NCBI GenBank assembly: GCA_030427635.1
Contig: JAUIBA010000009.1
Location: 87,987 to 151,986 of the forward strand
Length of the DNA stretch: 64,000 nucleotides
DNA from: Bacteroidia bacterium
GTDB lineage: Bacteria; Bacteroidota; Bacteroidia; Chitinophagales; Chitinophagaceae
Direction: 5' to 3'
Shown here: one piece after another, positions 26,404 to 53,815 of the stretch
How positions within the stretch are numbered: the first letter of the stretch is position 1
Layout: each line of letters begins with the position of its first letter
Notes under the pieces: generated by a model
What the model saw: only the letters and a program-made list of their open reading frames with translations
The model's database searches: none
What the model was told of the DNA's origin: nothing
Program-made: the position numbers and the translations under genes

Positions 26404-29400
26404 CTACTTTATAATCGTTACGTCTCCTTTAATAAATATATCCTCTCCGGTATAGCACACCGCTTCTATGAGATACACATACACATCCGGTCTTGGCGTT
26501 CCGCCCTTATAGGAGCCATCCCATGCATTCTGCGCATCATTAAGCGTAATGTTGTTTCGTTCAAACAGTAATTCTCCCCACCTGTTATATATCCTGAATG
26601 TCTTCACGGTCTTTACCCCTATACCCCGCGGGTAGAACACATCATTCTCCCCATCGCCATTTGGTGTAAAGGCATTAGGCACAAACACCTGACTGTTGTC
26701 GCAATACAGGTATATAGTCACAGAGTCAGATGCACGGCAGCCATGTTTCGATACCGCATCGGCAGTATAGGTAGTATTTACTGTCATACTGGCCACGGGA
26801 CTGTAACAGTCATCACAGCTCAGTGTTTCAGATGGCCACCATGTGAGTGTTTCTATATTGCTGCCGGTAGCATTCAGCTGAGCCTGAGAGCCTGCCACCA
26901 GACGCTGGTCGGGGCCGGCATCAATAGTAGGCAGCGGATACACTTCTACCGTTACATAGTTGGTATCAGGTATACAGCTACCCAGCTGGGCTATAGCCAT
27001 ATATATTACCGTATATGGTGGCGTAGCTATGGGGTTAGGTATTGTATTGTCACTGAGGCCGGTAGCCGGCAGCCACAGGTAAGTATGACCTCCGGTATCA
27101 AACAGCGGAACAGGTACACCGTAGCACACCGCAGTATCGCCCCATGCATTTGCAATCGTATGCGTACGCAGGAATACTGATACCGTGGCGGTATCTATAC
27201 ACCCACGGCTGTCTGTACCCGTTACCGTATATACAGTAGGCACATCCGGCGTAGCATAGGTAGGGTTGCACGCAGTGCAGCTCAGCGTGGCAGGTGGCTC
27301 CCATGTGTAGGTAGCTGCACCATAGCCTATAAGTGTTGCCGGGTCGCTTACGCATACTGTGGTATCAGGACTGGCGGTAACCACCGGTGGTGGCTCTACT
27401 ATCAGCTCCTGAGTAAGGGAGTCCATACAGCCCCAGGCATTGGTCACTACCAGTTTTATAGGATAAGTGCCCGGCGTATTAATTGTGTGCGTAGGTGCCT
27501 GTACGGTACTTGTGTTACCGTCATAGGTCCACAGCCAGGTATCTACCGGATTCCAGTAGCCGGTGGAAGTTTCTACAAATGTGAACTCCATACCTATACA
27601 TACCGGACTGGGCGCTGTAGTGAAGGCTGCTTTTACCTCATCTATCTTTATCGTATCCAGCCCCACACTGGATGTCTGGCATCCGGTATTATCGCTCAGT
27701 ATCAGCTTGGGTACAAATGCCCCCGGCGTGGTATAGGTGTGCGATATGGTATCGGTAAACGATATAGAACTTGTAGAGCCGTCAGAGAAGTCCCAGGTAA
27801 TGAAAGGCACATTGCTCAGTGTGGCGGTGAAATGTACCGTAAGCGGCACGCAGCCGGTAAGCGGTGTGTAAGACAGTGCACCTGCATAACCAAATATGTT
27901 CACCGCACGCTCCATAGTATCCTTACAGCCCCACATATTGGTAGCTATAAGCCTTACAGGATAAAGGCCCGATGCTATATACATGTTGCTGGGCGATGGT
28001 ATCGTAGAGCTGCCACCATCACCAAAGGTCCAGTTATATGCGGTAGCGCCTGTACTGGTATTGGTAAAGTTCACTATCAGAGGCGGACATACAGAGACCG
28101 AATCGCTCATAGCAAAGTTTGCCACAGGTTTCGTGACGTTGATATAACCAGGATAAATTACTTCATCGGTACAGCCATGCGTATCCGTTACCGTGAGCTT
28201 CACGTTAAATGACCCGGTTATACTATAAGCATGTGTGGAAGTAGCGCCTGTGCCCGGAGGTGTACCATCACCATAGTCCCACGAGTAAGAAGCTATACCA
28301 CCTGTAGATGTACTGGTAAAGTTTACGTTACTACTGACACACGGATGCAGATTACTGGCTACAAACGACGCCTGCGGATCCCATACTGTAACAGCTCCAA
28401 ATTCTGATACGGAGTCTTTACAACCCAGGTTGTCCGTTACTATCAGCGTTACGCTGAATACACCACCGGCAGTATAGGTATGCACAGAGGGGGTACCTAC
28501 GCCGGTAAGACCATCACCATATTTCCACTCATACGACACCAGCGATGAGCCGGAAGTAGGTGTACTGGTACTGGTAAGTGTAACATTGAGCGGGGCACAG
28601 CCCGATGACGGGGCAACCGTTAGGCCCACGTTGGGTGCCGAAACAAAAATATAGTTGTCCAGCCTCATGGTATCCCAGCAGTCATTAACACTCCTTACCC
28701 TGAGCATAATATCATGATAGCCCGATGTTGTGAATATATGTGAAATGATAGGCCCGCTGGGTAAAGGCAGCCCTATAAGGGTTCCATTATCATACCATTG
28801 GTACTCCATAACTGCCCCTCCCAATACCGCAGCTGTAAATGTTACGGTATCGCCACTGCATATATTGGTACGGTTCGCCGTGAAGTTAGGTATAAGACTG
28901 TCTATGTATATATATATACTGGCAGTATCCCGGCACCCGCTGGCTATGTTATAAGTAGTCAGTGTCACCGTATGCGAACCATATGTGGAGAAATAGTGTA
29001 CCGGGTCGTCAACTGTAGAGGTTGTTCCGTCACTGAATATCCACAGGTGGGTATCATCACCCATTGATGCATTAAAAAAGTTTACACGGTTACGTGGAGA
29101 GCAGAGTATGTTATGGTTGATAATAGACTTCGGAGAGTCTATCTGAATATAATCTGTAATGAAAGTGGTAACACCAGGACAGCCATGGTAGTATGGTGTT
29201 ACAGATGGTGTAAAGTATACCCCCGGCACCGTGTATACGTGCGCTACAGGGCCTGGAGTAGATGAGGTATCATATACCACTACAGAACTACCGTCGTCAA
29301 AATCCCAGTGATATTCATCTACAGGGCCTACTACTATGGTAGGCGTAAACACTACAGGTATATGCTCACCATAACATACATGGCGGGGAGCAGCGCTGAA

Positions 29401-31002
29401 TATTACCTGTGGCGGCTCACCTACACGCACCTGTACAGTGGCCGTTACCGGACAGCCATTGGCCGTTACAGCCGATACCGTAATTGTATATACGCCTACT
29501 GCGGTAAATGTATGTGTGGGCGTAGGCATAGTGGATGGAGTACTGCCATCGCCAAAATCCCATACAAAAGAGCCGGCAGGCCCGTAAGGATAAGGATACA
29601 AACCCGGAGGCGGAATAGAAGTCTCAAGACTGGTACTGAAATTAACCGTTAGCGGCACACAGCCTTCATCCGGTGAGGCATACGCCTGGAAAATGATATC
29701 ATAAATGGTTATACCACCCTCTGCCGTATCTACACAGCCGGTATGCGGATCTGTTACTATTACCTGTGCTGTTTTTGTACCATTGGTAGGGTAGGTTACT
29801 ACCATAGGTGATCCGGTACCGGAACTACCACCGGTGCCCGGCGGTGAAAACAGCCATGAATATATCATACCGGGGGGCGATACTGAGTAAGTAATCGTTG
29901 CCGGTGCAGGACAAGGATCTGTAGGATTAACAGTGATGGTGATGTTAGGACCGGGAATCACTACTATCGGGTGTATTACCGTATCGGCACAGGGGCCATT
30001 ACCTATTATCAGCCGCACATTGTATACTCCTGGTGCAGAATATGCGTGAGAGCCGTGAGTACTGCCACTGGTAGCGCCATCGCCATAATTCCAGTTGGAA
30101 GAGGTAAATGGTGGCGGGCTGGTATTGGTAAAGGTCACATTATTATATACACACACCGTATCAGGGTGGGTAAATGAAGCGCTGATGTTACCAATGCTGA
30201 TGTTACTGATAAATGTATCCAGACAGCCATTACCGTCAGATACAATAAGGCGTACCGGATAGGTACCGGTAGAGCCATAAACGTGGGTTGTGGGGGAACC
30301 CGTTCCGGTAAAGCCATCACCAAAGTCCCATGAGCTGCCTAATGGTGCAGCGCCGCTACTGGTACTGGTAAAGGGGATAGACACCGGTGGATTACAGCCA
30401 CCACCCGGACTGGTAAACGAGGCCACGGGAGGTGGGTACACATGTATATATGCAGGCTTTGTAAGCGAGCCCACACACCCCTGAGAGTTGGTCACAAACA
30501 GCGTAACGGTATAGTCGCCGGGCGCACTATATGTATGTGTGGCCGGGCTGGAGGTACCGGTACCACTACCATCTCCCCAGTTCCATGTACAGGTCATAGG
30601 ACCCGGCACACCACTTATACTGGTATTGGTAAAGGTCACCGGAGTATTGGGACATACCGTAGTATCATTTGCCGTAAAGGAGACCGTAGGGGGTGGATGC
30701 ACCGTAATGGTCATAGAATAGGTACTTACAGATGTGCCATTGGTAGCAGTAAGCACTACTACATGCGTACCCGGGGTGGTGAAACTCGTGGACGGATTGG
30801 TAAGTACAGATGTACCTGATGTACCAAATGTCCAGGAGTAGGTAGTTCCTCCCGGCCCTGTAGTAAGGTTGGTAAAGCTTACCAGTAACGGCGCACATCC
30901 TGTAGCGGGCGTGGCGGTGAAACTTGCGGTAACCTGAGCGTCTGACGTGAAAGCCAGGAATAAGGTGACGAGTATAGAAAATACAAGTTTAAAACATTTC
31001 AT
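26404..31002 (-). CDS. Multi-PKD-domain surface protein with gliding-motility-associated C-terminal (T9SS type B) domain
   Basis: 1532 aa; many [W/F]DFGDG...HTY...G.Y.V.L PKD units; CTD QVFVPNAFTPNGDGENDVFYPRG...FRIYNRWGELLFE...WDGSYKGGTPRPDVYVYLIEAVC. Confidence 0.92.
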   Translation of the reverse strand: MKCFKLVFSILVTLFLAFTSDAQVTASFTATPATGCAPLLVSFTNLTTGPGGTTYSWTFGTSGTSVLTNPSTSFTTPGTHVVVLTATNGTSVSTYSMTITVHPPPTVSFTANDTTVCPNTPVTFTNTSISGVPGPMTCTWNWGDGSGTGTSSPATHTYSAPGDYTVTLFVTNSQGCVGSLTKPAYIHVYPPPVASFTSPGGGCNPPVSIPFTSTSSGAAPLGSSWDFGDGFTGTGSPTTHVYGSTGTYPVRLIVSDGNGCLDTFISNISIGNISASFTHPDTVCVYNNVTFTNTSPPPFTSSNWNYGDGATSGSTHGSHAYSAPGVYNVRLIIGNGPCADTVIHPIVVIPGPNITITVNPTDPCPAPATITYSVSPPGMIYSWLFSPPGTGGSSGTGSPMVVTYPTNGTKTAQVIVTDPHTGCVDTAEGGITIYDIIFQAYASPDEGCVPLTVNFSTSLETSIPPPGLYPYPYGPAGSFVWDFGDGSTPSTMPTPTHTFTAVGVYTITVSAVTANGCPVTATVQVRVGEPPQVIFSAAPRHVCYGEHIPVVFTPTIVVGPVDEYHWDFDDGSSVVVYDTSSTPGPVAHVYTVPGVYFTPSVTPYYHGCPGVTTFITDYIQIDSPKSIINHNILCSPRNRVNFFNASMGDDTHLWIFSDGTTSTVDDPVHYFSTYGSHTVTLTTYNIASGCRDTASIYIYIDSLIPNFTANRTNICSGDTVTFTAAVLGGAVMEYQWYDNGTLIGLPLPSGPIISHIFTTSGYHDIMLRVRSVNDCWDTMRLDNYIFVSAPNVGLTVAPSSGCAPLNVTLTSTSTPTSGSSLVSYEWKYGDGLTGVGTPSVHTYTAGGVFSVTLIVTDNLGCKDSVSEFGAVTVWDPQASFVASNLHPCVSSNVNFTSTSTGGIASYSWDYGDGTPPGTGATSTHAYSITGSFNVKLTVTDTHGCTDEVIYPGYINVTKPVANFAMSDSVSVCPPLIVNFTNTSTGATAYNWTFGDGGSSTIPSPSNMYIASGLYPVRLIATNMWGCKDTMERAVNIFGYAGALSYTPLTGCVPLTVHFTATLSNVPFITWDFSDGSTSSISFTDTISHTYTTPGAFVPKLILSDNTGCQTSSVGLDTIKIDEVKAAFTTAPSPVCIGMEFTFVETSTGYWNPVDTWLWTYDGNTSTVQAPTHTINTPGTYPIKLVVTNAWGCMDSLTQELIVEPPPVVTASPDTTVCVSDPATLIGYGAATYTWEPPATLSCTACNPTYATPDVPTVYTVTGTDSRGCIDTATVSVFLRTHTIANAWGDTAVCYGVPVPLFDTGGHTYLWLPATGLSDNTIPNPIATPPYTVIYMAIAQLGSCIPDTNYVTVEVYPLPTIDAGPDQRLVAGSQAQLNATGSNIETLTWWPSETLSCDDCYSPVASMTVNTTYTADAVSKHGCRASDSVTIYLYCDNSQVFVPNAFTPNGDGENDVFYPRGIGVKTVKTFRIYNRWGELLFERNNITLNDAQNAWDGSYKGGTPRPDVYVYLIEAVCYTGEDIFIKGDVTIIK

Positions 31003-31177
31003 GTTGTTTAAAATTGTAATTTGTTTTTATGGAGAAGGATAATAAAGATAGATAATATTGTGTTAAAAAGAGACGTTTACAGCCATAAATAAGTTGGGAT
31101 TTTTAAAAAATATATCGTTAGTTAAAAATATAAATGCATTATTAATTGGAGGTGTTTTCGTTATCATATTGATATTT

Positions 31178-34100
31178 TTATCTTATTATTGTTACATCGC
31201 CTTTTATCAGCACCGGCTGGCCTGTATAGCACACGGCTTCTACTACATAAACATACACATCCGGCCTTGGGTAGTCGCCATTATAGTTACCATCCCACGC
31301 ATTGGATGCATCGTTTACATTAATATTTCTTCGTTCAAAAAGCAGCTCTCCCCACCGGTTATATATCCTGAATGACTTAACAATGCTTATACCCGTTCCC
31401 CGGGGATAGAACACATCGTTTTCACCATCATTGTTGGGCGTAAACGTATTAGGGAGAAACACCTGCTTGCTGTTACAGAATACAAATACGGTTACAGAGT
31501 CAGAATGTCTGCAGCCCTGAGGAGAAATACCTGTGACCACATAGGTAGTTGTGGTGGTAACAGTTGCTTCCGGGTCTGAGCAGTCATAACAATCCAGTCC
31601 CTGAGGTGGGGTCCACTCCCAGGCAGCCGTATTGATACCGGTAGCCGTAAGCTGCACCGATGAACCCGACAGCACCTCCTGGTCAGGGCCCGCATCTACC
31701 CTGGGCGCAGGGAATACCTGCACTTTTACATAATCTGTATCAGGTATGCAGCCAGCCAGCTGCGCTATAACGGTATAGGTAATTGTTGATGCCGGAAATG
31801 CTATAGGATTCCATATGGTAGGGTCACTGAGACCTCCCGGTGGCAGCCACGTATATTTTGTACCTCCGGTATCAAAAAGCGGTATTGAGTTTCCGGAGCA
31901 CATTACAGAGTCTCCCCATGCATTGGCAAATGTATGCGTACGCAGCCCTACCGTCACAGTATCTGTATCCTTACAGCCTTTCACATCTGTACCCGTCACC
32001 GTATAAGTAGTCACTACAGGCGGCGTAGCCGATGTGGGATTGCAGGTAGCACAGCTTACCGTGGCCACAGGCTCCCACTCATAAGTAGCAGCTCCCCATG
32101 CCTCAAGCGATGCCGGGTCTCCCACACATACCACAGTATCGGCACTGGCCGATACCACCGGCAGCGGCAGCACTTCCAGGCTACTCACCAGTGTGGCCGT
32201 ACAGCCCCAGGCATTGGATACCGTAAGCGTTACCGGATAGATGCCCGGCTCATAAACAGTCCATGCAGGTGAGGAGTCGGTGCTTGTTATCCCGGGCCCG
32301 TAAGTCCAGTCCCAGCTGTCTATGGGCATCCAGAAGAAGGTAGAGGAGTCTACAAAATGAAACTCTGTACCCAGACACGCCGCCGGCGATACGTCAAACT
32401 TTGCAGTAATGCCATCTACCTTTATTGTGTCATCGCCCAGGGTGGAGTTCTGGCAGCCGGTATTATCACTCAGTATGAGCTTGGGTACATACCCCCCGGG
32501 AATGGTATATATATGTACAGCAGAATCTACTGCCGACATAACACTGGTATTACCATCGCCAAAGTCCCATATGATACCGGGCACATTACTGATAGCCGCA
32601 TGAAAATGTACCTCCAGCGGTGCACAGCCCGTAAGCGGTGCATAGGTAAGCGAGCCGGCATAGCCATATATGTTGACAATGCGCGATGCCGTATCGGCAC
32701 AGCCCCAGTAGTCCCGTACTATGAGCGTGGCAGTGTACAGGCCTGGCGATATATATACATTACTGGGCGACATAAGTGCAGATATATTGCCGTCGCCAAA
32801 GGTCCAGTCATAATACATGCCACCTGTACTGGTATTGGTAAAGGCCACAGTAAGTGGTGAGCATACCGAAAAGGTATCGCTGGGTATAAATGATGCCACA
32901 GGCTGGGTAACATTTATATAGCTGGCATTCGTCTGCGTATCGGTACAGCCATGTACATCTGTCACTACCAGTTTTACAGTATAGCTGCCGGCAGCAGTAT
33001 AAGCATGTACCGGCGATGTGGCGGTAGATGTAGTACCGTCACCAAACATCCAGAATGAGCTTACAATAGCTACCGAAGCATTGTTGAACGTTATAGGGAC
33101 ATTGATACAGGGGTGTACATTACTGGCAGTAAATACAGCATCTGGTTTGTACACGATTACTGCCGACGGATGAGCCGCGGTATCCATACAACCTATATTA
33201 TCCGTCACTATCTCTGTTACAGAATAAGTGCCGGGATTGGTATAAGTATGTGTGGTAACGGGTGTACTTACCGTAGTGCCACTGCCATCGCCAAAGTCCC
33301 ACTGAAACCCGGTCATGAACAGCCCCGGCACATCGGTACTGATATCAGTAAAGGTCACTGTAAGCGGCCAGCAACCGGGTACAGGAGCCACCGTAAAGTT
33401 AGCCACGGGTTTACCCACTATCACATAGTTATCCCGGATTACCGTATCAGGACAGAAGCGGTCATTAAGAAATGTAAACATGATGGAGTACAACCCTGGC
33501 ACATTGAATGTGTCGCGCATATGCATACCCACCTGCCATGGGTCGTTATGCCCGTTCACAAACCATGTGGCAGCAGATATGGTGCCGCCCGTTACTGTGG
33601 CAGTAAAGTTTACGGCATCGCCCTCACAAACAGTTGTATCATCAGCAGTGAAGTTCACCACCGGACTCAGCAGATTAATTACAGCATGAGCCGTATCCCG
33701 GCAGCCACTGGCCGCATTATATGTAGCCAGTGATACCGTATAGACCCCTATAGACGGGTAATCATGCACAGGGTCATCGGCCGTAGAGCTGGTACCATCG
33801 CCAAAGAACCATATGTGGGTATCAGCCCCCATGGAACTGTCCACAAAATTTACCCGCGTAAGCGGTGAGCAGGGAAAGGAGTGGTATATGATAGCCTTGG
33901 GAGAGTCTACCGTTATGACCACTGGCCATACATAGGGCGGCCCGGGACAGCCATGATAGTATGGCGTTACCGTAGCCGTATAAAAGCCGGGCGTATTATA
34001 GTAATGAACCGCCCCCGGCGAGGTAGCATATAGTGAGCCATCGCCAAACTCCCACTGATATGCATCTACAGGACCGGTAATAACCGTAGCGGTAAACACA

Positions 34101-35719
34101 ACGCTATCACCATAACATATATGTGTGGGTGCTGCGGTAAAAGTTACTTCGGGTGGTGTACCTACCTTCACCAGCAGTGTATCCGTCACCGGGCATCCAT
34201 TATCTGTTGTTGCGGTAACCGTTACCACATATACACCCACAGCTGTATAGGTGTGGTTAGGGGCAGAGGCGGTACTGGTAGGTGATCCATCGCCAAAATT
34301 CCACGTATAGCCCGATATCCCGTAAGGATATGGGTGCGATGTGGTATCCGGCTGCATAGTGTATGCCGCAGAGCTGAAGTTAACATTCAGCGGCACGCAC
34401 CCCATAGTGGGAGTGGCTATGCCTACAAATGTCAGGTCATATAGCGTATCACGGTGTACTACGGTATCTATACAGCCATGCACATCCGATATCACCATTT
34501 TTATGGTCTTTACCCCATCTGTACCCCAGTTGTGTGTATTAGTGGGGCCGGTAGCAGAGGTGCCATCACTGTACAGCCAGGTAACGCTGCTGCCCGGCGG
34601 CACAATAGAAGTATAAGATATATTCACCGGTGCAGGGCATGGATCTGCAGGGGTAAAGGTAAAGTCGCCCACCGGCAGCGGATGAATAGTAATGGTATGT
34701 GTTTCCACATCATTGCACGGTCCGCTGAGGATAGTAAGTGTTACCGTATAAGTACCCGGTGCTGTGTACACATGCATGCCGCTGAAGGAGGTATCTGCCG
34801 GGGTTCCGTCACCATAGTTCCAGCTGCGGGTGGTATGCACGCTGCTGGTATTGGTAAACGATACCGGAGAAAAAACACAGCCCGATGCAGGCCCGGTAAA
34901 CGCAGCATTGATGCTGCCTACAAATACATATGCAGGACGGGTAAGGCTGTCTTTACAACCATTACCATCTGTAACTACAAGCTTTACATCGTACGTCCCA
35001 GGCACACTGTAAGTGTTGGATGCCGGCGAGCCTGTAGCCATAATACCCGACCCGAATGTCCACAGGTAGGATAATGGCGCAGTACCTGAGCCCGTACTGG
35101 TAAATGTTACAGCGCCCGGAGGGTTACATACATTAAGCGGACTGCCGGCAAAGTTCACTGCCGGGGGTGTATGTACACGGATGTAGGCTACGCGGGTGAG
35201 TGTACGCACACAGCCCTGACTGTTGGTAGCCGTAAGCGTGATGTTATAGAAACCCGGAGTACTGAAAGTATGCACAGGGTTAGCCACAGTGGACGTACTG
35301 CCATCACCGAAGTTCCACAGCCATGTCATTGGGCCGGGCACACCACTACTGCTGGCATTGATGAATGATACCGCCTCTCCCGGGCATACTGCAGTATCGG
35401 TAGCTGAAAATGATACCGTAGGCAATGGATGCACCGTTATCACCATAGTGTGTATATCGGTACTGCCATCTGCTCCATAAGCAGTAAGCGTTACGGTATA
35501 GGTACCTACTGAAAGATAGCTGGTAGATGGGTCCGTAATAGGAGTAATAGTACCGTTACCCAGATTCCATGAATAGCTTGCTGCACCCGTAGATGTATTG
35601 GTAAAGTGCACCACATGTGGTGCACAGCCGGCGGCAAAGTCTGCAGTGAAGCCCGCTGTGACTGCCCCGGCTACAGCAGACTGCACTAAAAGCAGCAATA
35701 TGGTGAGCAGGTACCGCAT
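31178..35719 (-). CDS. Paralogous multi-PKD-domain surface protein with gliding-motility-associated C-terminal domain
   Basis: 1513 aa; colinear with the downstream paralogue; CTD QVFLPNTFTPNNDGENDVFYPRG...RIYNRWGELLFERRNINVND. Confidence 0.92.
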   Translation of the reverse strand: MRYLLTILLLLVQSAVAGAVTAGFTADFAAGCAPHVVHFTNTSTGAASYSWNLGNGTITPITDPSTSYLSVGTYTVTLTAYGADGSTDIHTMVITVHPLPTVSFSATDTAVCPGEAVSFINASSSGVPGPMTWLWNFGDGSTSTVANPVHTFSTPGFYNITLTATNSQGCVRTLTRVAYIRVHTPPAVNFAGSPLNVCNPPGAVTFTSTGSGTAPLSYLWTFGSGIMATGSPASNTYSVPGTYDVKLVVTDGNGCKDSLTRPAYVFVGSINAAFTGPASGCVFSPVSFTNTSSVHTTRSWNYGDGTPADTSFSGMHVYTAPGTYTVTLTILSGPCNDVETHTITIHPLPVGDFTFTPADPCPAPVNISYTSIVPPGSSVTWLYSDGTSATGPTNTHNWGTDGVKTIKMVISDVHGCIDTVVHRDTLYDLTFVGIATPTMGCVPLNVNFSSAAYTMQPDTTSHPYPYGISGYTWNFGDGSPTSTASAPNHTYTAVGVYVVTVTATTDNGCPVTDTLLVKVGTPPEVTFTAAPTHICYGDSVVFTATVITGPVDAYQWEFGDGSLYATSPGAVHYYNTPGFYTATVTPYYHGCPGPPYVWPVVITVDSPKAIIYHSFPCSPLTRVNFVDSSMGADTHIWFFGDGTSSTADDPVHDYPSIGVYTVSLATYNAASGCRDTAHAVINLLSPVVNFTADDTTVCEGDAVNFTATVTGGTISAATWFVNGHNDPWQVGMHMRDTFNVPGLYSIMFTFLNDRFCPDTVIRDNYVIVGKPVANFTVAPVPGCWPLTVTFTDISTDVPGLFMTGFQWDFGDGSGTTVSTPVTTHTYTNPGTYSVTEIVTDNIGCMDTAAHPSAVIVYKPDAVFTASNVHPCINVPITFNNASVAIVSSFWMFGDGTTSTATSPVHAYTAAGSYTVKLVVTDVHGCTDTQTNASYINVTQPVASFIPSDTFSVCSPLTVAFTNTSTGGMYYDWTFGDGNISALMSPSNVYISPGLYTATLIVRDYWGCADTASRIVNIYGYAGSLTYAPLTGCAPLEVHFHAAISNVPGIIWDFGDGNTSVMSAVDSAVHIYTIPGGYVPKLILSDNTGCQNSTLGDDTIKVDGITAKFDVSPAACLGTEFHFVDSSTFFWMPIDSWDWTYGPGITSTDSSPAWTVYEPGIYPVTLTVSNAWGCTATLVSSLEVLPLPVVSASADTVVCVGDPASLEAWGAATYEWEPVATVSCATCNPTSATPPVVTTYTVTGTDVKGCKDTDTVTVGLRTHTFANAWGDSVMCSGNSIPLFDTGGTKYTWLPPGGLSDPTIWNPIAFPASTITYTVIAQLAGCIPDTDYVKVQVFPAPRVDAGPDQEVLSGSSVQLTATGINTAAWEWTPPQGLDCYDCSDPEATVTTTTTYVVTGISPQGCRHSDSVTVFVFCNSKQVFLPNTFTPNNDGENDVFYPRGTGISIVKSFRIYNRWGELLFERRNINVNDASNAWDGNYNGDYPRPDVYVYVVEAVCYTGQPVLIKGDVTIIR

Positions 35720-45088: not shown

Positions 45089-45355
45089 CCGGGAAAGTCA
45101 CATATATTTCATCATTACATCCACACAACCGATAACATCTGCATAACCGCTATTGTTGTACCTTTGTACCACAAACCCAATTCTGTAACCTATGTACCTA
45201 TCTATTGATTATATAATAATTTTTCCGCGAGCAACTTTTGTAACCTTTTTGCGACATTTTGCATCACAAAGAATATCACAAAGTATTGATTAACAGCAAA
45301 CTACGAAAGCGTACGCCTCAGAAAAATATTTTTCTTCCCACTGCGCAGTTTTCAT
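45089..45355 (+). repeat. Non-coding element copy A (~267 bp), homologous to 53544-53815 (minus strand)
   Basis: Colinear conserved blocks: ATAACATCTGYATARCCRCTATTRTYGTACCTTTGTACC, TATATAATAA(A)TTTTCCGCGAGCAAYTTTTGTAACCTTTTTGCGAMATTTTGC, TTTTCTTCCCACTGCGCAGTTTTCAT. Confidence 0.85.
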
Positions 45356-45520
45356 CTTTGTCTATCTTTTTCCTGTCTTGCAGGTCTGCTTTGGCATCCG
45401 TTCACATGCCCGGTTTTTAAATGAATAATCCACATTTCCACATCAGCAGTTAAACACTTTAGCGCATTATTTTTAGTTACTTTGCCTTCGGTAGTCATCT
45501 GCTATTAGCTACCTCTGAAC

Positions 45521-46030
45521 ATGAAACGTACCCTCATACTGATAAGGCACGCAAAATCAAGCTGGAATAATCCACTTCAGAGCGATTTTGAAAGGCCGTT
45601 GAATGACCGGGGCAATAAAGATGCTCCGGAAATGGGGGCACGACTAAGAAAAGCAAACATCATACCTGATATTATTATCTCCAGTGCAGCCGTGCGTACC
45701 CGGCAAACCACCGCCCATCTTGCAGCAGCGCTGGGTGTGCGGGAGCATAATATACAATGGGAGGAGAAGTTATATCATTGTGTACCTGCTGTTCTGGAAG
45801 AAGTGATTTATGCCCTGCCACAGGAAGTACACACTGTATTTATTGTAGCGCATAACCCCGGTATTACCGAGTTTGCCAATCAGCTTTCTCCCGACTTCTA
45901 TACCGGCAATATGCCCACCTGCAGCATAGTAGGCGTTCATCTTAGCTCCGATAACTGGTTTGATTTTGACAAAGTGAAAAAAGAGGTGTTTCTGTACGAT
46001 TACCCCAAAAATGAACATGAATCCGAATAA
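45521..46030 (+). CDS. SixA-like histidine phosphatase family protein
   Basis: LILIRHAKSSWNNPLQSDFERPLNDRGNKDAPEMG; VFIVAHNPGITEFANQL. Confidence 0.92.
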   Translation: MKRTLILIRHAKSSWNNPLQSDFERPLNDRGNKDAPEMGARLRKANIIPDIIISSAAVRTRQTTAHLAAALGVREHNIQWEEKLYHCVPAVLEEVIYALPQEVHTVFIVAHNPGITEFANQLSPDFYTGNMPTCSIVGVHLSSDNWFDFDKVKKEVFLYDYPKNEHESE

Positions 46031-47492
46031 GACAATAACACAAGTTACCACAACCCTTACTAAGCTCTTCGAAGAGCACTTTGAAAAAGAAGCAGAGTCT
46101 ATAGAAGCGCTGCCGGTATCCGGTTCAGACCGCCGTTACTATCGTCTCACAGCAGGCAACATTACTGCTATAGGCACTTACAATGCCAATGTTGCTGAGA
46201 ATAACACCTATTTCTATTTCACAGAGCTGTTCCGCCGCCATCAGATAAATGTGCCTGAGGTTTACCTGCGTAGCAAAGACCGTAAAGCATATCTGCAGCA
46301 GGACCTCGGCAGCACCACCCTTTTTGACCTCGTACTCTCTGAGGGTTATACCGATGAGGTGCGCCGTCACTACCACACAGCACTGGCACAGCTGGCCCGG
46401 CTGCAGTGGATAGCAGGCCGTGAGGCCGACTTCAAGCAGTGCTTCGCCTCCCGTCAGTTCGATGAGAAGGCCATCATGTCCGATCTGCTGTATTTCAAAT
46501 ATTACTTTGCCGACCTTCAGGGCATACCTTACGACCGCTCTCTGCTCATCAGTGAGATGGAGCAGCTAAGTAAAGACCTGGGCCGTGTGCAGCCACAAAC
46601 CCTCATGTTCCGCGACTTTCAGAGCCGCAACATAATGGTACATGAAGGCCAGTTATACTTTATAGATTTTCAGGGCTGTATGCAGGGCCCACCACAGTAC
46701 GATATTGCTTCTCTGCTATGGCAGGCACGCGCTCAGCTGCCGTCTTCCTTCCGCGATGAGTTGCTGAACGGCTATGTTACCACACTAGGCGAGCTCAATG
46801 TCCCCCGTATGGATGAAATATACTTCCGTCGCGGATATGTACAGTTTGTACTGGTACGCCTGCTGCAGGTACTGGGCGCATATGGGTTCAGAGGCCTGCT
46901 GCAGCACAAAGCACACTTTGTCACCAGCATAGGCCCGGCACTGAAGAATCTTGACCAGTTCCTTTCCGATCATCCACAAACACCGGCCTACCCCGAGCTG
47001 CGCACCCTTCTGGAGCGTATCTCCTCCCGCGATATGCAGGACCGCTACAATACCAGCCCTGCCGAGGAGCCCTCAAATCTGGAAATACAGATTTGCAGCT
47101 TTTCTTACAAGCAGGGTATTCCCCGGTCTACCGGCCAGCACGGCGGTGGTTATGTCTTTGACTGCCGCGGGCTGCTGAATCCCGGCCGCTACGCAGCCTA
47201 CAAGCACCTTACCGGTAACGATGAGCTGGTAAAACAGTTTCTGGAGCGGGAAACCCGTATGCCCGGCTTCATGGACCATGTCACGGCCCTTGTGTCTATC
47301 AATGTGGAAGATTATATAGCCCGTGGTTTTGAGCAGCTCAGCGTAGCCTTTGGCTGTACCGGTGGTCAGCACCGTTCTGTATATGCCGCCAATGCACTGG
47401 CAAAACACCTCACTTCCAGGTATAATGTCAAAGTAGTGGTGACCCATACCAATGAAAAGAAGTGGGTACTGGGCGATGCACCTGCAAGCTGA
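46011..47492 (+). CDS. Aminoglycoside-phosphotransferase-like (AmgK-like) kinase fused to a RapZ C-terminal domain
   Basis: MFRDFQSRNIMVHEGQLYFIDFQGCMQGPPQYDIASLLWQARA kinase catalytic motifs; C-terminal IQICSFSYKQGIP...GGGYVFDCRGLLNPGR...VAFGCTGGQHRSVYAANALAKHL = RapZ C-terminal domain. Confidence 0.88.
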   Translation: MNMNPNKTITQVTTTLTKLFEEHFEKEAESIEALPVSGSDRRYYRLTAGNITAIGTYNANVAENNTYFYFTELFRRHQINVPEVYLRSKDRKAYLQQDLGSTTLFDLVLSEGYTDEVRRHYHTALAQLARLQWIAGREADFKQCFASRQFDEKAIMSDLLYFKYYFADLQGIPYDRSLLISEMEQLSKDLGRVQPQTLMFRDFQSRNIMVHEGQLYFIDFQGCMQGPPQYDIASLLWQARAQLPSSFRDELLNGYVTTLGELNVPRMDEIYFRRGYVQFVLVRLLQVLGAYGFRGLLQHKAHFVTSIGPALKNLDQFLSDHPQTPAYPELRTLLERISSRDMQDRYNTSPAEEPSNLEIQICSFSYKQGIPRSTGQHGGGYVFDCRGLLNPGRYAAYKHLTGNDELVKQFLERETRMPGFMDHVTALVSINVEDYIARGFEQLSVAFGCTGGQHRSVYAANALAKHLTSRYNVKVVVTHTNEKKWVLGDAPAS

Positions 47493-47585
47493 TGCCAGGT
47501 GCAGTTATTTTAAATAGCGGTATCAGCGTAAGCAATGCCGCAAGCCGTAATATTTCAGTACTTTTGCGTTAAAATAGTTGATAAT

Positions 47586-48173
47586 ATGCTGAAGACAGGA
47601 AATACAATCGTGAGCATATATACCGAGATGACGCCCAATCCGGAGACCATGAAGTTTGTTGCCAATAAACTTCTTTATCCCGGCAAAAGCATAGACTTCC
47701 CCGATGAGTCAGCAGCAGGCCCTTCGCCACTGGCCCGGGAGTTGTTTGCTTTCCCGTTCATCCGTAGCGTATTCATTGCCAGTAACTTCGTAACACTTGC
47801 CAAAACTCCCGATACCAATTGGGATGATGTTATACCATCTATCCGCCAGTTTCTGAAAGAATATCTGGAAGAAGGTCGTGTGGTTATTAATGAAGACCAG
47901 GTAGTGAAGCCGGCAGAAGCTGCCATCAGCGATAGCGATACTGATGTTGTAGTGCGTATAAAAGAGCTGCTGGAAAACTATGTAAAACCAGCTGTGGAAA
48001 TGGACGGTGGTGCTATCAGCTTCAAAGGTTTTGAAGATGGTACAGTAACGCTCATGCTGCAGGGCTCATGCTCAGGCTGCCCCTCATCTATGATTACACT
48101 GAAGTCTGGTATAGAAGGTATGATGAAGCGCATGATACCAGAAGTTAAAGAAGTAGTTGCTGAAGCAGAGTAA
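47586..48173 (+). CDS. nfu: NifU family (Nfu) Fe-S scaffold protein
   Basis: Nfu_N: YTEMTPNPETMKFVANKLL; C-terminal DGGAISFKGFEDGTVTLMLQGSCSGCPSSMITLKSGIEGMMKRMIPEVKEV. Confidence 0.94.
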   Translation: MLKTGNTIVSIYTEMTPNPETMKFVANKLLYPGKSIDFPDESAAGPSPLARELFAFPFIRSVFIASNFVTLAKTPDTNWDDVIPSIRQFLKEYLEEGRVVINEDQVVKPAEAAISDSDTDVVVRIKELLENYVKPAVEMDGGAISFKGFEDGTVTLMLQGSCSGCPSSMITLKSGIEGMMKRMIPEVKEVVAEAE

Positions 48174-48208
48174 TACATTCTTTCTTTGTTAAATAATCCT
48201 TTTTATAT

Positions 48209-48240
48209 GCGGCAAACAACCAGTTTGCCGCTTTCTTTTT
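48209..48240 (+). terminator. Intrinsic terminator downstream of nfu
   Basis: GCGGCAAAC-AACCA-GTTTGCCGC then TTTCTTTTT. Confidence 0.85.
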
Positions 48241-48349
48241 GGTGCGCAGCACATGAAATTGTGTTATTTTTATACCCGGTTAACAATCTGCCCCCTACCC
48301 GTCTGCGGCACATCTGCTAAGGACCAGCGGGGGCACAGTACACTCGCAA

Positions 48350-49435
48350 ATGAAATTCGAGAACAATTATGTGGCCATTATGGCCGGCGGTATAGGTAGC
48401 AGATTCTGGCCGGAAAGCCGCACCCACCATCCCAAACAATTCCTTGACCTTCTGGGCACCGGAAAGTCTCTCATACAGTGGACCTATAACCGCTTCAGGC
48501 ATATATGCCCCAGGGAAAACATATACTTTATTACCAATGAGCAGTATATGGACACCCTGCGCCAGCAGATACCGGATATAAGTAACGACAATATAATCAG
48601 CGAGCCGTCCCGTAAGAATACAGCGCCCTGTGCTGCATACTTTGCACACAAGATAATGGCGCTGAACCCTGAGGCAAACATCATCATGTCTCCTGCCGAT
48701 CATCTGATAATGGATGAGCACTCTTTTGAGCGTACGGCCAATGATGCGCTGGAGTTTGTATCTAAGCACAAAGCGTTGCTGACACTGGGCGTAAAGCCCA
48801 CCCGCCCCGATACCGGTTATGGCTATATTCAGTACGATGTAGACCATGAAATTGATAAGGTATACCGGGTGAAGACTTTTACAGAAAAGCCTTCACTGGA
48901 ACTTGCCCGCACCTTCCTGAAGAGTGGCGACTTCCTGTGGAACTCCGGCATATTCGTCTGGAATGTACAGACCATTATGCAGGCACTGGAGCAGTTCCTG
49001 CCAGAAATGCATGAGGTTTTCCTGCAGGCAAAAGGTCTTTACAATACTCCCGGTGAGCACGATGCTATCGTAAAGCTGTACCCTCACTGCACCAATATTT
49101 CTATAGACTATGGCATCATGGAAAAAGCCCGTAACGTCTATGTAATACCATCCTACTTTGGCTGGTGCGACCTTGGCACATGGGAGTCGGCATATGACAA
49201 TAGCGAAAAAGACTATCTGGGTAACGCCGTTCTGGGCAACAATGTAATGGTGATAGACGCTACCGAATGCATGATAAAAGCCCCTGACGATAAGCTGGTA
49301 GTACTACAGGGACTGGAAAACTTTATAGTAGTAGATACAAATGATGTACTGCTTATATGTGAGCGCAACCGTGAGCAGCAGATTAAGGAATATGTGGCAG
49401 AAGTAAAACGCAACAAAGGAGATAAGTACCTGTAA
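48350..49435 (+). CDS. manC: Mannose-1-phosphate guanylyltransferase
   Basis: VAIMAGGIGSRFWPESRTHHPKQFLDLLGTGKSLIQWTYNRF; IIMSPADHLI; FTEKPSLELA. Confidence 0.93.
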   Translation: MKFENNYVAIMAGGIGSRFWPESRTHHPKQFLDLLGTGKSLIQWTYNRFRHICPRENIYFITNEQYMDTLRQQIPDISNDNIISEPSRKNTAPCAAYFAHKIMALNPEANIIMSPADHLIMDEHSFERTANDALEFVSKHKALLTLGVKPTRPDTGYGYIQYDVDHEIDKVYRVKTFTEKPSLELARTFLKSGDFLWNSGIFVWNVQTIMQALEQFLPEMHEVFLQAKGLYNTPGEHDAIVKLYPHCTNISIDYGIMEKARNVYVIPSYFGWCDLGTWESAYDNSEKDYLGNAVLGNNVMVIDATECMIKAPDDKLVVLQGLENFIVVDTNDVLLICERNREQQIKEYVAEVKRNKGDKYL

Positions 49436-49456
49436 GCCATCGCTTACAGTTCCTGC

Positions 49457-49900
49457 TTATTGCTTTTCCCTTACTGCTTTTACCTCTTCTGCTGTTACAG
49501 GCTGGCCGTTGTTTTCCATCATCCTGTTAGTGTATACAAATGTGAGTACTGCAGCTACTTCGTCATCGTTTAGCCGCTGCGGCGGCATAGTGTTATTATA
49601 CTCCTTTCCATTCACCACTATCTTGCCACTGCTGCCGTTGATTACCTGATGTATAGCCTGCTCTCTGTTACTAAGATAGTCCGACTTGGCAAGGGGAGGG
49701 TAAACATTGGCAATACCATCACCGGCGGCCATATGGCAGGAAGCACAGTTGCGCTTATACAGGTCCTCTCCCGATGGGGCCGATGAAGTCTTTACGTCGT
49801 CAGTTGTAAAGGGCTGTTTTTCGGTAGTGGTATCATTACTACCGCAGGAAATAACAGTAAGCGTAAGAGATACAGCCAGGAAAGATAGAATCTGTTTCAT
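49457..49900 (-). CDS. Monoheme c-type cytochrome lipoprotein
   Basis: Lipobox VISCGS; GEDLYKRNCASCHMAAGDG; MPPQRLNDDEVAAVLTFVYTN. Confidence 0.9.
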   Translation of the reverse strand: MKQILSFLAVSLTLTVISCGSNDTTTEKQPFTTDDVKTSSAPSGEDLYKRNCASCHMAAGDGIANVYPPLAKSDYLSNREQAIHQVINGSSGKIVVNGKEYNNTMPPQRLNDDEVAAVLTFVYTNRMMENNGQPVTAEEVKAVREKQ

Positions 49901-49978
49901 ACAGGTAGCAGTTTATATGCCGTATGCAAAAGTAGTGCTGCACACACGTAAATCCAACGAGGAACAGTCTTCTTACTG

Positions 49979-50494
49979 TCAGTAATCTGTTTGCTGCAGC
50001 CATGCTTCCTGTATCAGGTGATACGTAGCCTTTCCTGCAACGTCGGTATAGAGGGTAGCGCCGGTTTTTTCTACTGCCCTGCGCGATCTTATATTGCCCG
50101 ACCCTATATGAAAAACGACAACATCGGCCTGAGAGAACGCATGGTCTATCATCAATCGTTTGAGCTCATTGTTGTAGCCCTGCCCCCAGCATCTGCGCAC
50201 CAGAAAGGTGTAGCCTATAGCTATACTTCGCCCTGCAGCATCATATTCATAATACCGGGAGCTACCCAGCACAGCGCCACTGGCTTTGTCTACCAGCGTA
50301 AAAGCCGTGCCGGAGGATAAAGCACTGTTCCAGAACTTCAGGAAGACGTCAGGCTTATATCTGTCCTGTTCCGGGTGCTGCTCCCATATGAGGGGGTCGG
50401 CAGCTGCTGCAAAAAGAGGCGCTCTGTCTGAAAGCACCAGCGGACGCACCAGCAGGCGGTCGCTTTGTAATACAGGTTGCAGATTCCGGCTCAT
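49979..50494 (-). CDS. GNAT family N-acetyltransferase
   Basis: LQSDRLLVRPLVLSDRAPLFAAAADP; IAIGYTFLVRRCWGQGYNNELKRLMIDHAF; GSGNIRSRRAVEKTGA. Confidence 0.9.
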   Translation of the reverse strand: MSRNLQPVLQSDRLLVRPLVLSDRAPLFAAAADPLIWEQHPEQDRYKPDVFLKFWNSALSSGTAFTLVDKASGAVLGSSRYYEYDAAGRSIAIGYTFLVRRCWGQGYNNELKRLMIDHAFSQADVVVFHIGSGNIRSRRAVEKTGATLYTDVAGKATYHLIQEAWLQQTDY

Positions 50495-50606
50495 GAAAAG
50501 GACTAAGACATGCTAAGTTACCAAACATCCCATACACTCCGGAAAACAGTAGTGGCAGCACCTGTACCAGATGCTGCCACTGACAATGTAACAACAGTTT
50601 GTATTG

Positions 50607-51122
50607 TCAGCCTTTTTTAATGTGCCGTTTGGTAACACGTTTCAGCTTGCCCTGGCTACGCCACTTGCTGCGGGGTTTTCCTGCCATTGCCGCCGGTACG
50701 TCTATGAGGCGGGGCTTGAGGGTAAGTATGTTACCAGTCGGTATATCTATGAGCCAGCCAAAGCCACCTGTGAGCAGTGCATCTACCACTACTATTTTCC
50801 CCCACACTTTGGGCTTCAGCTCAACAGTGGCACGCTTGCCTGAGCCGGGGGAGTATAACTCCAGCGAAGCCCGTTTTTTGCGCGGCAGTTTTACCGATGA
50901 GGTATAATATGCCACGGAGCCATTGGTACGGCCGCTGGCGGCAAAAACATCGCTGCCTATACTAAGCCGCTCTCCACCGGACGAGACCTGAAGGTCTGAA
51001 GGGGCATCAATAAGGAAGACCTCTGTCTTGCCCTTTTTACTTGCATTGAGAATAGTGCCGCAACTACTGAACGACCACATGAGCCAGAGTGCTGCTACCA
51101 GAAAAAGTGTGTTGTTTTTCAT
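50607..51122 (-). CDS. Hypothetical lipoprotein
   Basis: MKNNTLFLVAALWLMWSFSSCGTILN lipobox; basic C-terminus. Confidence 0.65.
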   Translation of the reverse strand: MKNNTLFLVAALWLMWSFSSCGTILNASKKGKTEVFLIDAPSDLQVSSGGERLSIGSDVFAASGRTNGSVAYYTSSVKLPRKKRASLELYSPGSGKRATVELKPKVWGKIVVVDALLTGGFGWLIDIPTGNILTLKPRLIDVPAAMAGKPRSKWRSQGKLKRVTKRHIKKG

Positions 51123-51221
51123 GCTGTTCTGCTTAAGGATGAAAGAATATATTATCATCCGCAAAACTATTTCGGGGCACAACGGGGGTCAATTACACTT
51201 TAGTGGTATTTTGCAGGTATT

Positions 51222-51620
51222 ATGGCAATGCATAGTCTGGTACCGGGACAATCTGTAGTGCTCAGCATAGGGGCCGGGGAGCGGTATTCCGGTGAGGGGA
51301 TAGCAGTAAAGCCCGGTGAGCAATACCGGATATCCTGCGACAGGCAACAACGCTGGACCGATATGATAATACCCTCATCGCCGGATGGCTACCCAAACCC
51401 GCTGGCAAAACTGTGTGGGCTGCGGGTGCGGACTGCACGCTGCTTTTGCCTGTGTGGTGCGTGGGGCCGGCGTGATGCCACCGCATTTGCCATAGGCTCT
51501 GGCACACATACCATAGAAGCAGACCAGCATACAGACCTGACATTCTTTGCCAATGATGTGCGGGGCTTTGAATGGAACAACTGGGGCAGTATATCTCTTA
51601 CTGTGACCCGTATATCCTAG
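51222..51620 (+). CDS. Putative LecA/PA-IL-like carbohydrate-binding beta-sandwich protein
   Basis: C-terminal LTFFANDVRGFEWNNWGSISLTVTR resembles the P. aeruginosa LecA segment [21 protein letters not shown]; no signal peptide seen. Confidence 0.45.
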   Translation: MAMHSLVPGQSVVLSIGAGERYSGEGIAVKPGEQYRISCDRQQRWTDMIIPSSPDGYPNPLAKLCGLRVRTARCFCLCGAWGRRDATAFAIGSGTHTIEADQHTDLTFFANDVRGFEWNNWGSISLTVTRIS

Positions 51621-52060
51621 CGCAGCCGGTCTGTAGAACGCACCAGCTTATCATCGCGGCGTATAGCCATGAGCGCCAGCACTACAAATACCATTGCCAC
51701 AACCGGTAGTATGCCACCTATCCAGTAACTGCCGCTGCCTGCAGCATCGTCATTAGAGACACGGAACAGGGTGAGCGAAACAAAAGATACACAGGATAGC
51801 ATGGACACAGAACACAAGCGTATCTGCCGCTTGCGGTCGCGGTACATGAATACAGTAATAAGTGGCAGTGCTACCATTACCAGGGCTATAAGCAGAGACG
51901 GAAAGTGATTAGCTACTTTCAGGTCTTTTGCCGCTACGGTGCCGGCAGGTATTCTGTAAAGGTCAAATATAAATACGCCCGCACTGAGCAGTGATGCCAG
52001 CAGCAGCCAAAGAGACTGTTTGCGGAATATGAGGTCGTTCGATTTTTTGTTCTGTGTCAT
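51617..52060 (-). CDS. Hypothetical four-TM membrane protein
   Basis: Hydrophobic segments SLWLLLASLLSAGVFIF, LLIALVMVALPLITVFM, VVAMVFVVLALMAI. Confidence 0.6.
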   Translation of the reverse strand: MTQNKKSNDLIFRKQSLWLLLASLLSAGVFIFDLYRIPAGTVAAKDLKVANHFPSLLIALVMVALPLITVFMYRDRKRQIRLCSVSMLSCVSFVSLTLFRVSNDDAAGSGSYWIGGILPVVAMVFVVLALMAIRRDDKLVRSTDRLR

Positions 52061-52094
52061 TACTACTACTCAAAAAATGTCATGTAATGTGCTA

Positions 52095-53366
52095 TCAGCT
52101 TATCATGTCTTTACCGAAATAGCTGTGCAGTACCTGTGGTAGTTTTATACCGTCGGGTGTCTGATTATTTTCCAGCAGGCAGGCCACTATACGCGGCAGC
52201 GCCAGAGAGCTGCCATTGAGTGTATGGGCTATCTGTGTTTTGCCCTGAGCATCGCGCAGGCGTATCTTCATACGGTTTGCCTGGAAGGTCTCAAAGTTTG
52301 ATACGGAGCTTACCTCCAGCCAGCGCTCCTGTGCTGCGCTGAATACTTCAAAATCGTATGTGAGGGCCGACGTGAAGCTCATATCGCCACCACACAGGCG
52401 CAGTATGCGGTATGGCAGTCCCAGCGACTGTACCAGCTTTTCTACATGGCTCACCATCTGCTCCAGTGTATCATAGCTGCCGGCAGGGTCTGTAACCTGC
52501 ACTATCTCTACCTTATCGAACTGATGTACCCGGTTAAGGCCGCGTACGTCCTTGCCATAGGAGCCGGCCTCACGGCGGAAGCAGGGAGAATAGGCGGTCA
52601 TTTTTACCGGCATTTCCTGCTCTGGCACTATCACATCGCGGTATATGTTGGTAAGCGGCACCTCTGATGTAGGTATAAGGTAAAGGCCATCGGCGGTTAC
52701 GTGATACATCTGGCCTTCTTTATCGGGCAGCTGGCCCGTACCATAGGCGGTTTCCTCATTGACCATAAAGGGCGGGCAATGCTCTACATAACCGGCTGCG
52801 GTATTAAAGTCCAGAAAGTACTGTATGAGCGCACGCTGCAGACGGGCACCCTGCCCCATAAATACCGGAAATCCACTGCCGGCTATCTTGTTGCCCAGAC
52901 TGAGGTCCATGAGGCGGTATTGCGTCATAAGGTCCCAGTGGGGGAGTTTCTGCTCGGTAAGAGTTGGTATTTCGCCACCGCTGCGCACTATAACGTTTTC
53001 TTCGGGCGTTTTCCCCTCTGGTACGCTACTGTGCGGCAGGTTGGGCAGCTTTACGAGGGTGTCGTGTAGCTGCTGCTCAGCATCAGAAAGCTGCTGCACG
53101 AGGTCTTTAATAGTTTCCTTGTGCTGTGCTACCTGTGCTTTCAGCTCTTCGGCCTTGTCTTTCTCACCTTTTGCCATATGCATCCCTATCTGCTTAGAGG
53201 CGGCATTAACAGATGCTGCAAGGTTGTCATGCTCCAGCTGCAGGCGGCGACGTTTCTCATCTGTTTCTATGATGACATCTACCAGTTCTGTTTCTCTGAA
53301 GTGCTTTTTAGCTAATCCCTGTAGTATCAGTTCTCTATCCTGTCTGAAAAGTTGAATGGGCAACAT
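52095..53366 (-). CDS. serS: Seryl-tRNA synthetase
   Basis: MLPIQLFRQDRELILQGLAKK coiled coil; LYLIPTSEVPLTNIYRDVI; YSPCFRREAGSYGKDVRGLNRVHQFDKVEIV; NGSSLALPRIVACLLENNQ. Confidence 0.97.
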   Translation of the reverse strand: MLPIQLFRQDRELILQGLAKKHFRETELVDVIIETDEKRRRLQLEHDNLAASVNAASKQIGMHMAKGEKDKAEELKAQVAQHKETIKDLVQQLSDAEQQLHDTLVKLPNLPHSSVPEGKTPEENVIVRSGGEIPTLTEQKLPHWDLMTQYRLMDLSLGNKIAGSGFPVFMGQGARLQRALIQYFLDFNTAAGYVEHCPPFMVNEETAYGTGQLPDKEGQMYHVTADGLYLIPTSEVPLTNIYRDVIVPEQEMPVKMTAYSPCFRREAGSYGKDVRGLNRVHQFDKVEIVQVTDPAGSYDTLEQMVSHVEKLVQSLGLPYRILRLCGGDMSFTSALTYDFEVFSAAQERWLEVSSVSNFETFQANRMKIRLRDAQGKTQIAHTLNGSSLALPRIVACLLENNQTPDGIKLPQVLHSYFGKDMIS

Positions 53367-53490
53367 ATAGTTTGTAGTTGGTATGAAACAATGGCAAAGA
53401 TATACTTAGTGCGGCAATGTGCTTAATGAGAAAGCGGAGATTATTAATGTGAAGATTATGTATGTGTCACCCGCCGGAGAAAGAATGCAT

Positions 53491-53520
53491 TAAAAAAGCC
53501 TGTGTGCAATGCGTACAGGC
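53491..53520 (-). terminator. Terminator/attenuator-like hairpin upstream of serS
   Basis: Minus strand GCCTGTACGC-ATT-GCACACAGGC followed by TTTTTTAA; about 125 bp upstream of serS ATG. Confidence 0.55.
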
Positions 53521-53543
53521 GCTGACTAACAACCGGTAGATGC

Positions 53544-53815
53544 ATGAAAACTGCGCAGTGGGAAGAAAATTAGTTTTCTCATGGCACATTAACCACAACT
53601 GATTAGTAATCATAACATTGCGATTCTTTTTGCAGCGCAAAATTTCGCAAAAAGGTTACAAAAATTGCTCGCGGAAAATTTATTATATAAGCTGGCGGTG
53701 GGGGCATAAGGATACAGGGTGTGGAATGGGGTACAAAGGTACGATAATAGTGGCTATACAGATGTTATAGTGGGGATGAGTGTTATGATGAAACAGATGT
53801 GTGGCTTTGACCGGG
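53544..53815 (-). repeat. Non-coding element copy B (~272 bp), inverted homologue of 45089-45355
   Basis: Same ordered conserved blocks as copy A when read on the minus strand. Confidence 0.85.

Follow-up and report, generated by a model that had tools for sequence, protein, structure and literature searches.

The 64,000-nucleotide stretch of DNA analysed here (hereafter the window; contig JAUIBA010000009.1, positions 87,987 to 151,986, from a freshwater member of the Chitinophagaceae) contains two related non-coding elements in opposite orientations, one located 5' of a gene for a SixA-like histidine phosphatase and the other 5' of serS. These twins are probably short, non-autonomous copies of a multi-copy element, the full-length members of which carry a single orphan gene for a TerS-like (Mu-type small terminase) protein with a helix-turn-helix (HTH) domain. 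Their features, in window coordinates, are the following.

Twin copies and their anatomy

45089..45355, + strand: copy 1, short (putatively non-autonomous) element 5' of the SixA-like gene; block (ii) profile match C10:133194-133245, window 45208-45259
45117..45125, + strand: copy 1, ACATCCACA, degenerate version of the DnaA-box-like word TTATCCACA
45159..45166, + strand: copy 1, P1, TACCTTTG (-7 element of a putative Bacteroidota sigma-A promoter), at the element's left end
45192..45293, + strand: copy 1, short unconserved 33-codon frame that begins 33–34 nt past P1 and crosses block (ii)
45229..45261, + strand: copy 1, three tandem 11-bp units GAGCAACTTTT / GTAACCTTTTT / GCGACATTTTG, core of block (ii)
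45284..45303, + strand: copy 1, IHF-like site TATTGATTAACAGCAAACTA, 55 bp (5 x 11) from the array start
45320..45355, + strand: copy 1, block (iii), A-tract and CTTCCCACTGCGCAGTTTTC, right end (full-length copies end at CTTCCCAC)
53544..53815, - strand: copy 2, short (putatively non-autonomous) element 5' of serS; block (ii) profile match C10:141626-141677
53734..53741, - strand: copy 2, P1, TACCTTTG
53638..53670, - strand: copy 2, three tandem 11-bp units GAGCAATTTTT / GTAACCTTTTT / GCGAAATTTTG
53596..53615, - strand: copy 2, degenerate IHF-like site TTATGATTACTAATCAGTTG, 55 bp from the array start (weak score of 5.9, same offset)
53544..53579, - strand: copy 2, block (iii) with the palindrome ACTGCGCAGT at 53550-53559
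45521..46030, + strand: histidine phosphatase (SixA-like, His_Phos_1; PF00300, E 2e-11), co-oriented, downstream of copy 1
52095..53366, - strand: serS (PF00587, E 4e-36), co-oriented, downstream of copy 2

An earlier note made from the sequence alone had described this pair, and both copies are present at its coordinates and orientations. Blastn against the own genome gave 74% identity over 257 bp (E 7.9e-37); the whole 267 bp gave no further match beyond the twins. A chance resemblance is ruled out by this value (E 8e-37) and by a reversed block (ii) pattern, which had 0 matches. The gap to the co-oriented gene, put at about 170 bp in the note, measures 165 bp for the SixA-like gene and 177 bp for serS. 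The three conserved blocks, (i) to (iii), and the perfect palindrome ACTGCGCAGT are present as quoted there; the exact palindromic form of block (iii) was found only in the twins, with variants at the same place in nearly all other copies of the family described below.

The twins share no open reading frame (ORF), again as the note had it. In each of them an ATG lies 33–34 nt past TACCTTTG and opens a frame of 33–34 codons through block (ii), which is not the same frame in the two copies. A conserved small protein was rejected on these grounds, since the frames differ and the variation is not concentrated at third positions, and the short frame of copy 1 is a remnant or decoy of a gene start that encodes no conserved protein. 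The same arrangement, a P1-like promoter with an ATG 20–40 nt further on, is seen in further short copies as well as in the twins. Words resembling TTATCCACA occur about 36 nt 5' of P1 in many short copies, and around 12 copies have the perfect DnaA-box word at that distance (left ends, e.g., L272, L276, L288).

A dispersed family with a helically phased right end

The possibility that the genome held only these two copies, raised in the earlier note, can be set aside, as block (ii) belongs to a dispersed family. The own genome has 35 matches to its pattern when at most 2 mismatches are allowed in 19 bp and 46 when at most 3 are allowed in 25 bp, and the 25-bp version had one match among 199 other members of the Chitinophagaceae, in a congener. 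A sequence profile of the block gave 66 matches in the own genome and eight weak ones in 6 of 34 congeners; scoring covered the 150 best candidates of each genome, and the true number may therefore lie above 66. The exact core was absent from the other species and viruses searched. The selective conservation of the blocks is that of a functional-looking family and not just of a decaying duplicate, as had been proposed.

Three parts are conserved when 35 copies are aligned: TCATATAA..CGCGAGYAATTTTTGTAACCTTTTTG; a site resembling that of the integration host factor (IHF), WATTGATTATCAAYnnnTTA; and an A-tract with CTGCnCACTGCGCAGTTTT or CTTCCCAC after it. Block (ii) has as its core three tandem 11-bp units, GAGCAATTTTT / GTAACCTTTTT / GCGAACTTTT, with 19.2, 13.5, and 7.8 bits, respectively (61 copies). 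A free search for the best IHF-like site at 40 to 109 bp from the array start placed it at 44 bp (10 copies), 55 bp (27), 66 bp (18), or 77 bp (1), that is, at four to seven units in 56 of 65 copies, and within 1 bp of a multiple of 11 in 62/65 (six beyond the 56 exact ones), with a phase concentration of 0.99 at period 11. The P-value of this phasing overstates the independence of the data because some copies are tandem duplicates or near-identical; the phasing is visible also among unrelated copies. The right end is thus laid out as B-DNA: a tandem 11-bp array, and an IHF-like site at a distance that is a whole number of units.

This spacing bears on the nature of the blocks. The earlier note favored a functional non-coding RNA (ncRNA) or a regulatory family, and a promoter-like P1 does precede the conserved blocks in many copies, as an ncRNA gene would have it. 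However, distances that shift in exact 11-bp steps mean that the blocks act as DNA, not RNA; moreover, RNAalifold gave an energy of -0.55 kcal/mol with no covariation or compensatory pair, and no Rfam match was found between 44 and 55 kb of the window apart from a sub-threshold L20_leader elsewhere, between two genes at 48145-48245 (+; 25 bits vs. a cut-off of 58.7). An ncRNA family is therefore very improbable. Block (i) stands as a plausible sigma-A promoter, at a position corresponding to that of the promoter of the TerS-like gene in the full-length copies. The TGTAACC of block (ii), likened in the earlier note to the -35 element of an extracytoplasmic function (ECF) sigma factor, has to be reinterpreted: it is the second unit of the 11-bp array, and no conserved -10 CGTC occurs at the expected spacing.

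The IHF-like motif is enriched family-wide over a reversed control and is not specific to this element. Most of the Chitinophagaceae genomes searched show enrichment of its form TTGATWATCAAYnnnTTA, beside genome-specific phased words (AAAAGTCAAAT, AAATGTAACTA, and AATGTCCG), with examples at L174, L180, and L217-L221 (G043), L172 and L184 (G159), and L179 and L185 (G080); some of these sites lie just 5' of strong promoters such as that of rplM.

Full-length copies and the TerS-like protein

Five full-length copies of about 1.06 kb, 89–92% identical, were found in the own genome (C1:182760, C16:81775, C17:165334, C22:53582, and C25:3850). Each carries one gene of about 290 amino acids (aa), and all five are orphans with no adjacent TerL; the remaining copies, about 60, are short and incomplete. 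The promoter region of this gene carries a ATATCATATGC-type palindrome, P1, and the ATG, and its 3' end is formed by blocks (ii) and (iii), with similarity between copies stopping near CTTCCCAC. In seven short copies nhmmer detected the full-length promoter region, in the same direction, with E-values of 1e-21 (1.4e-21), 4e-20, 1e-18, 1e-15, 3e-11, 5e-6, and 6e-6 (best shuffled sequence, 0.036). As the right end is common to full-length and short copies and the left end recurs in at least seven of the latter, the short copies, twins included, are best read as non-autonomous derivatives that would have arisen by internal deletion. Sigma-54, LytTR, and OmpR arrays, considered as alternatives for the phased units, were dropped when full-length copies with the TerS-like gene came to light.

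The protein is called TerS-like from its homology to phage small terminases. Pfam Terminase_5 matches 30/30 members tested, with the copy from the own genome above the cut-off, and PHROG 4151 is matched with E 3e-12. Phage matches (23 records) come only from Bacteroides phages and two unnamed ones, and in both records inspected the gene stands directly 5' of TerL. In hhalign comparisons the protein of the hankyphage (a Mu-like Bacteroides phage), encoded beside TerL, was matched with a probability of 99.4 (E 5e-22, 139/148 aa) and the TerS of the own genome's Mu-like prophage with E 1e-20. The homology spans the N-terminal 140 aa (HTH and a helical domain) of the ~290-aa protein, which adds a variable proline-rich tail and is orphan and multicopy, whereas the hankyphage TerS has 148 aa and is a single copy beside TerL. 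The predicted structure is a helical model of moderate confidence for which no PDB match was obtained at E <= 0.001, so that a TerS fold in PDB is unsupported; among viral matches the best (E 1e-5) is to a phage protein annotated as a DDE transposase. In two congeners (G208 and G231; L340, L341) the segment LIINDLxxKTHETTGN recurs within TerS-like proteins; IHF-like sites, likewise repeated, encode it, and the element's site appears to have been duplicated in frame within its own gene.

A close general likeness is to miniature inverted-repeat transposable elements (MITEs), since there too short intergenic non-coding copies, in tens and partly in tandem arrays, share both ends with a rarer gene-bearing copy. 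A match to a MITE end, which the earlier note had contemplated, is borne out as far as the copies look like MITE derivatives, but the parent element has no recognised transposase or terminal inverted repeats and, in a further difference from MITEs, the direction to the next gene is fixed. Repetitive extragenic palindromic (REP) sequences and bacterial interspersed mosaic elements (BIMEs), with their REP-associated tyrosine transposases (RAYTs), are likewise species-specific palindromic repeats, dispersed between genes and associated with a multicopy gene for a protein; here, in contrast, the unit is ~115–140 bp with an 11-bp array and the protein is TerS-like and not a tyrosine transposase. 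No GTAG- or CGTC-tagged hairpin was found in the alignment of 35 copies, and no search for RAYT genes was made.

Several observations weigh against the twins being short copies of a mobile element. No terminal inverted repeats were found by inspection and repeat search, in agreement with the earlier note, and the full-length copy encodes only the terminase-type HTH protein, transposase matches being at the level of the HTH and below the cut-off. No target duplication or empty site could be demonstrated (serS of the closest congener is only 79% identical and the intergenic DNA is not alignable). The short frames past P1 have no similarity to the TerS-like protein, and the left ends of the twins are too diverged to be scored against the full-length promoter, their link to the family being made through blocks (ii) and (iii) and the position of P1 only. 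Finally, IHF-like sites are weak in some copies, including copy 2.

Even so, a mobile element ranks first among the explanations considered, regulation second, and packaging third. In such an element the TerS-like protein would bind the 11-bp units and an IHF/HU-type protein would bend the DNA at TTGATTATCAA; both proteins could then build a nucleoprotein complex recruiting an enzyme that copies or moves the element, and copies would be placed or retained just 5' of promoters in the direction of the gene.

Placement of the copies, congeners, and packaging genes

A co-oriented gene follows the element in 56 of 61 scorable copies (expected fraction 0.61, P 5e-8) and in 50/53 when tandem arrays are collapsed (P 2e-8), the background being 51 sampled intergenic regions with genes called by a simple ORF scan. 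The start codon lies a median of 262 bp from block (ii) (interquartile 230–303), and gene promoters of the TAnnTTTG type are located 200–270 bp downstream. This link in direction and position is what would be seen if copies insert 5' of promoters, if antisense transcription from P1 is selected against, or if the elements have a regulatory role. As P1 and the gene promoters are both TAnnTTTG, integration of the CTnDOT type at GTAnnTTTG promoters was weighed too, but it was not adopted because the distance from block (iii) to the gene promoter varies.

Regulation would mean that the TerS-like protein has turned into a transcription regulator, with the short elements as activating or repressing sites for ~50 genes through IHF-assisted looping to the promoter of each gene. 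The fixed direction, the tight distance, the downstream promoters, and the helical phasing with an IHF-like site are all what such a regulon would produce, but the target genes (serS, RNase R, ribBA, MutS-like, transporters) show no functional theme, most congeners lack the element at serS, and a promoter and ATG inside the elements would be superfluous for an operator. The sites also occur in tandem arrays and, in other species, within the TerS-like coding sequence, and we regard a regulon as unlikely. A regulon conserved in congeners was rejected: one of them (G207) has its own dispersed short family, and serS is the only clear target in common with the genome studied here (G000). In three congeners, element-like sequences with other words lie close to serS or to the dGTPase gene beside it (L121:1252-1400 in G207, L119 in G231, and L388:15256 in G212), a recurrence that is possibly more than coincidence.

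The TerS-like gene is multicopy in the genus, with 1–14 copies in each of 33 of the 34 congeners, and is absent from 46 genomes of other genera (searched at E 1e-4). In five congeners (G203, G209, G211, G212, and G231) its 3' end or flank has the same type of layout with other words.

The third explanation is that blocks (ii) and (iii) are cos- or pac-like start sites recognised by the TerS-like protein, from which a Mu-like phage or phage-derived particle packages chromosomal DNA or the element itself. In lambda cosB an IHF site lies between the TerS sites R3 and R2 (R3-IHF-R2-R1, 120 bp; PMC4669245), and the pac site of P22 is located in its terS gene (PMC9611059). The architecture here is comparable, with a TerS-type protein, putative site arrays around an IHF-like site within ~115–140 bp (~120–140 bp when set beside those systems), and a location inside the TerS gene in full-length copies; it differs in being chromosomal, with tens of copies, no adjoining TerL, and 11-bp tandem units. 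Besides the TerS homology, packaging is favored by TerL relatives, present in 31 of the 35 genomes that represent the genus, and by the synteny of a TerS-TerL-gp36-portal cluster. However, a headful mechanism explains neither the co-orientation with the nearest gene nor the fixed distance, no capsid gene was found at the conserved cluster in the stretches read, and no such array lies beside the own TerS of the cluster or of the prophage, making packaging a rather improbable explanation.

The cluster itself (L380:9248-14533, on C33 of the own genome) comprises TerS, TerL, a gp36-like gene, Portal_Mu (E 3e-66), and phrog_6911, and is conserved in order beside ubiD or the same neighbors in several congeners (L382, L384, L386-L389). 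TerS stands next to TerL only in this separate cluster and in the prophage, and the cluster is a possible gene transfer agent (GTA) or domesticated phage.

The Mu-like prophage (35.2 kb, C37:107441-142611; L293, L298, L378) has MuA-, MuB-, TerS-, TerL-, and portal-like genes and ACAGACCGTWTAC sites at both ends. It interrupts one copy of the element exactly within the first of its 11-bp units, with AATT(T) duplicated, an event with a chance of ~5e-4 (one prophage; ~61 copies x 33 bp in 4.25 Mb).

Apart from these, positions 27426-34999 of the window hold seven copies each of diverged direct repeats of 46 nt and (one outlier) 42 nt, probably a gene for a repeat-domain protein.

A dispersed, orientation-fixed family of putative protein-binding sites together with a multicopy small-terminase-like gene and no transposase was not found in the literature searched, and for the pairing of gene and dispersed DNA site in this freshwater bacterium no counterpart among described families was found; it is novel in combination. 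A bolder and doubtful proposal is that a genus of freshwater Chitinophagaceae combines a chromosomally fixed Mu-like packaging cluster with an expanded set of TerS paralogues, particular to each species, and with tens of dispersed cos/pac-like sites recognised by these paralogues, in which the words vary and the layout of 11-bp units and IHF-like site stays. If true, the chromosome would be a network of packaging start sites and the system a new kind of GTA-like or phage-satellite system. The family described here makes it possible to ask if an orphan TerS can drive the spread of a DNA element and if chromosomal packaging sites exist in bacteria beyond the known GTA lineages, and it offers a putative, rapidly evolving protein–DNA recognition pair within one genus.

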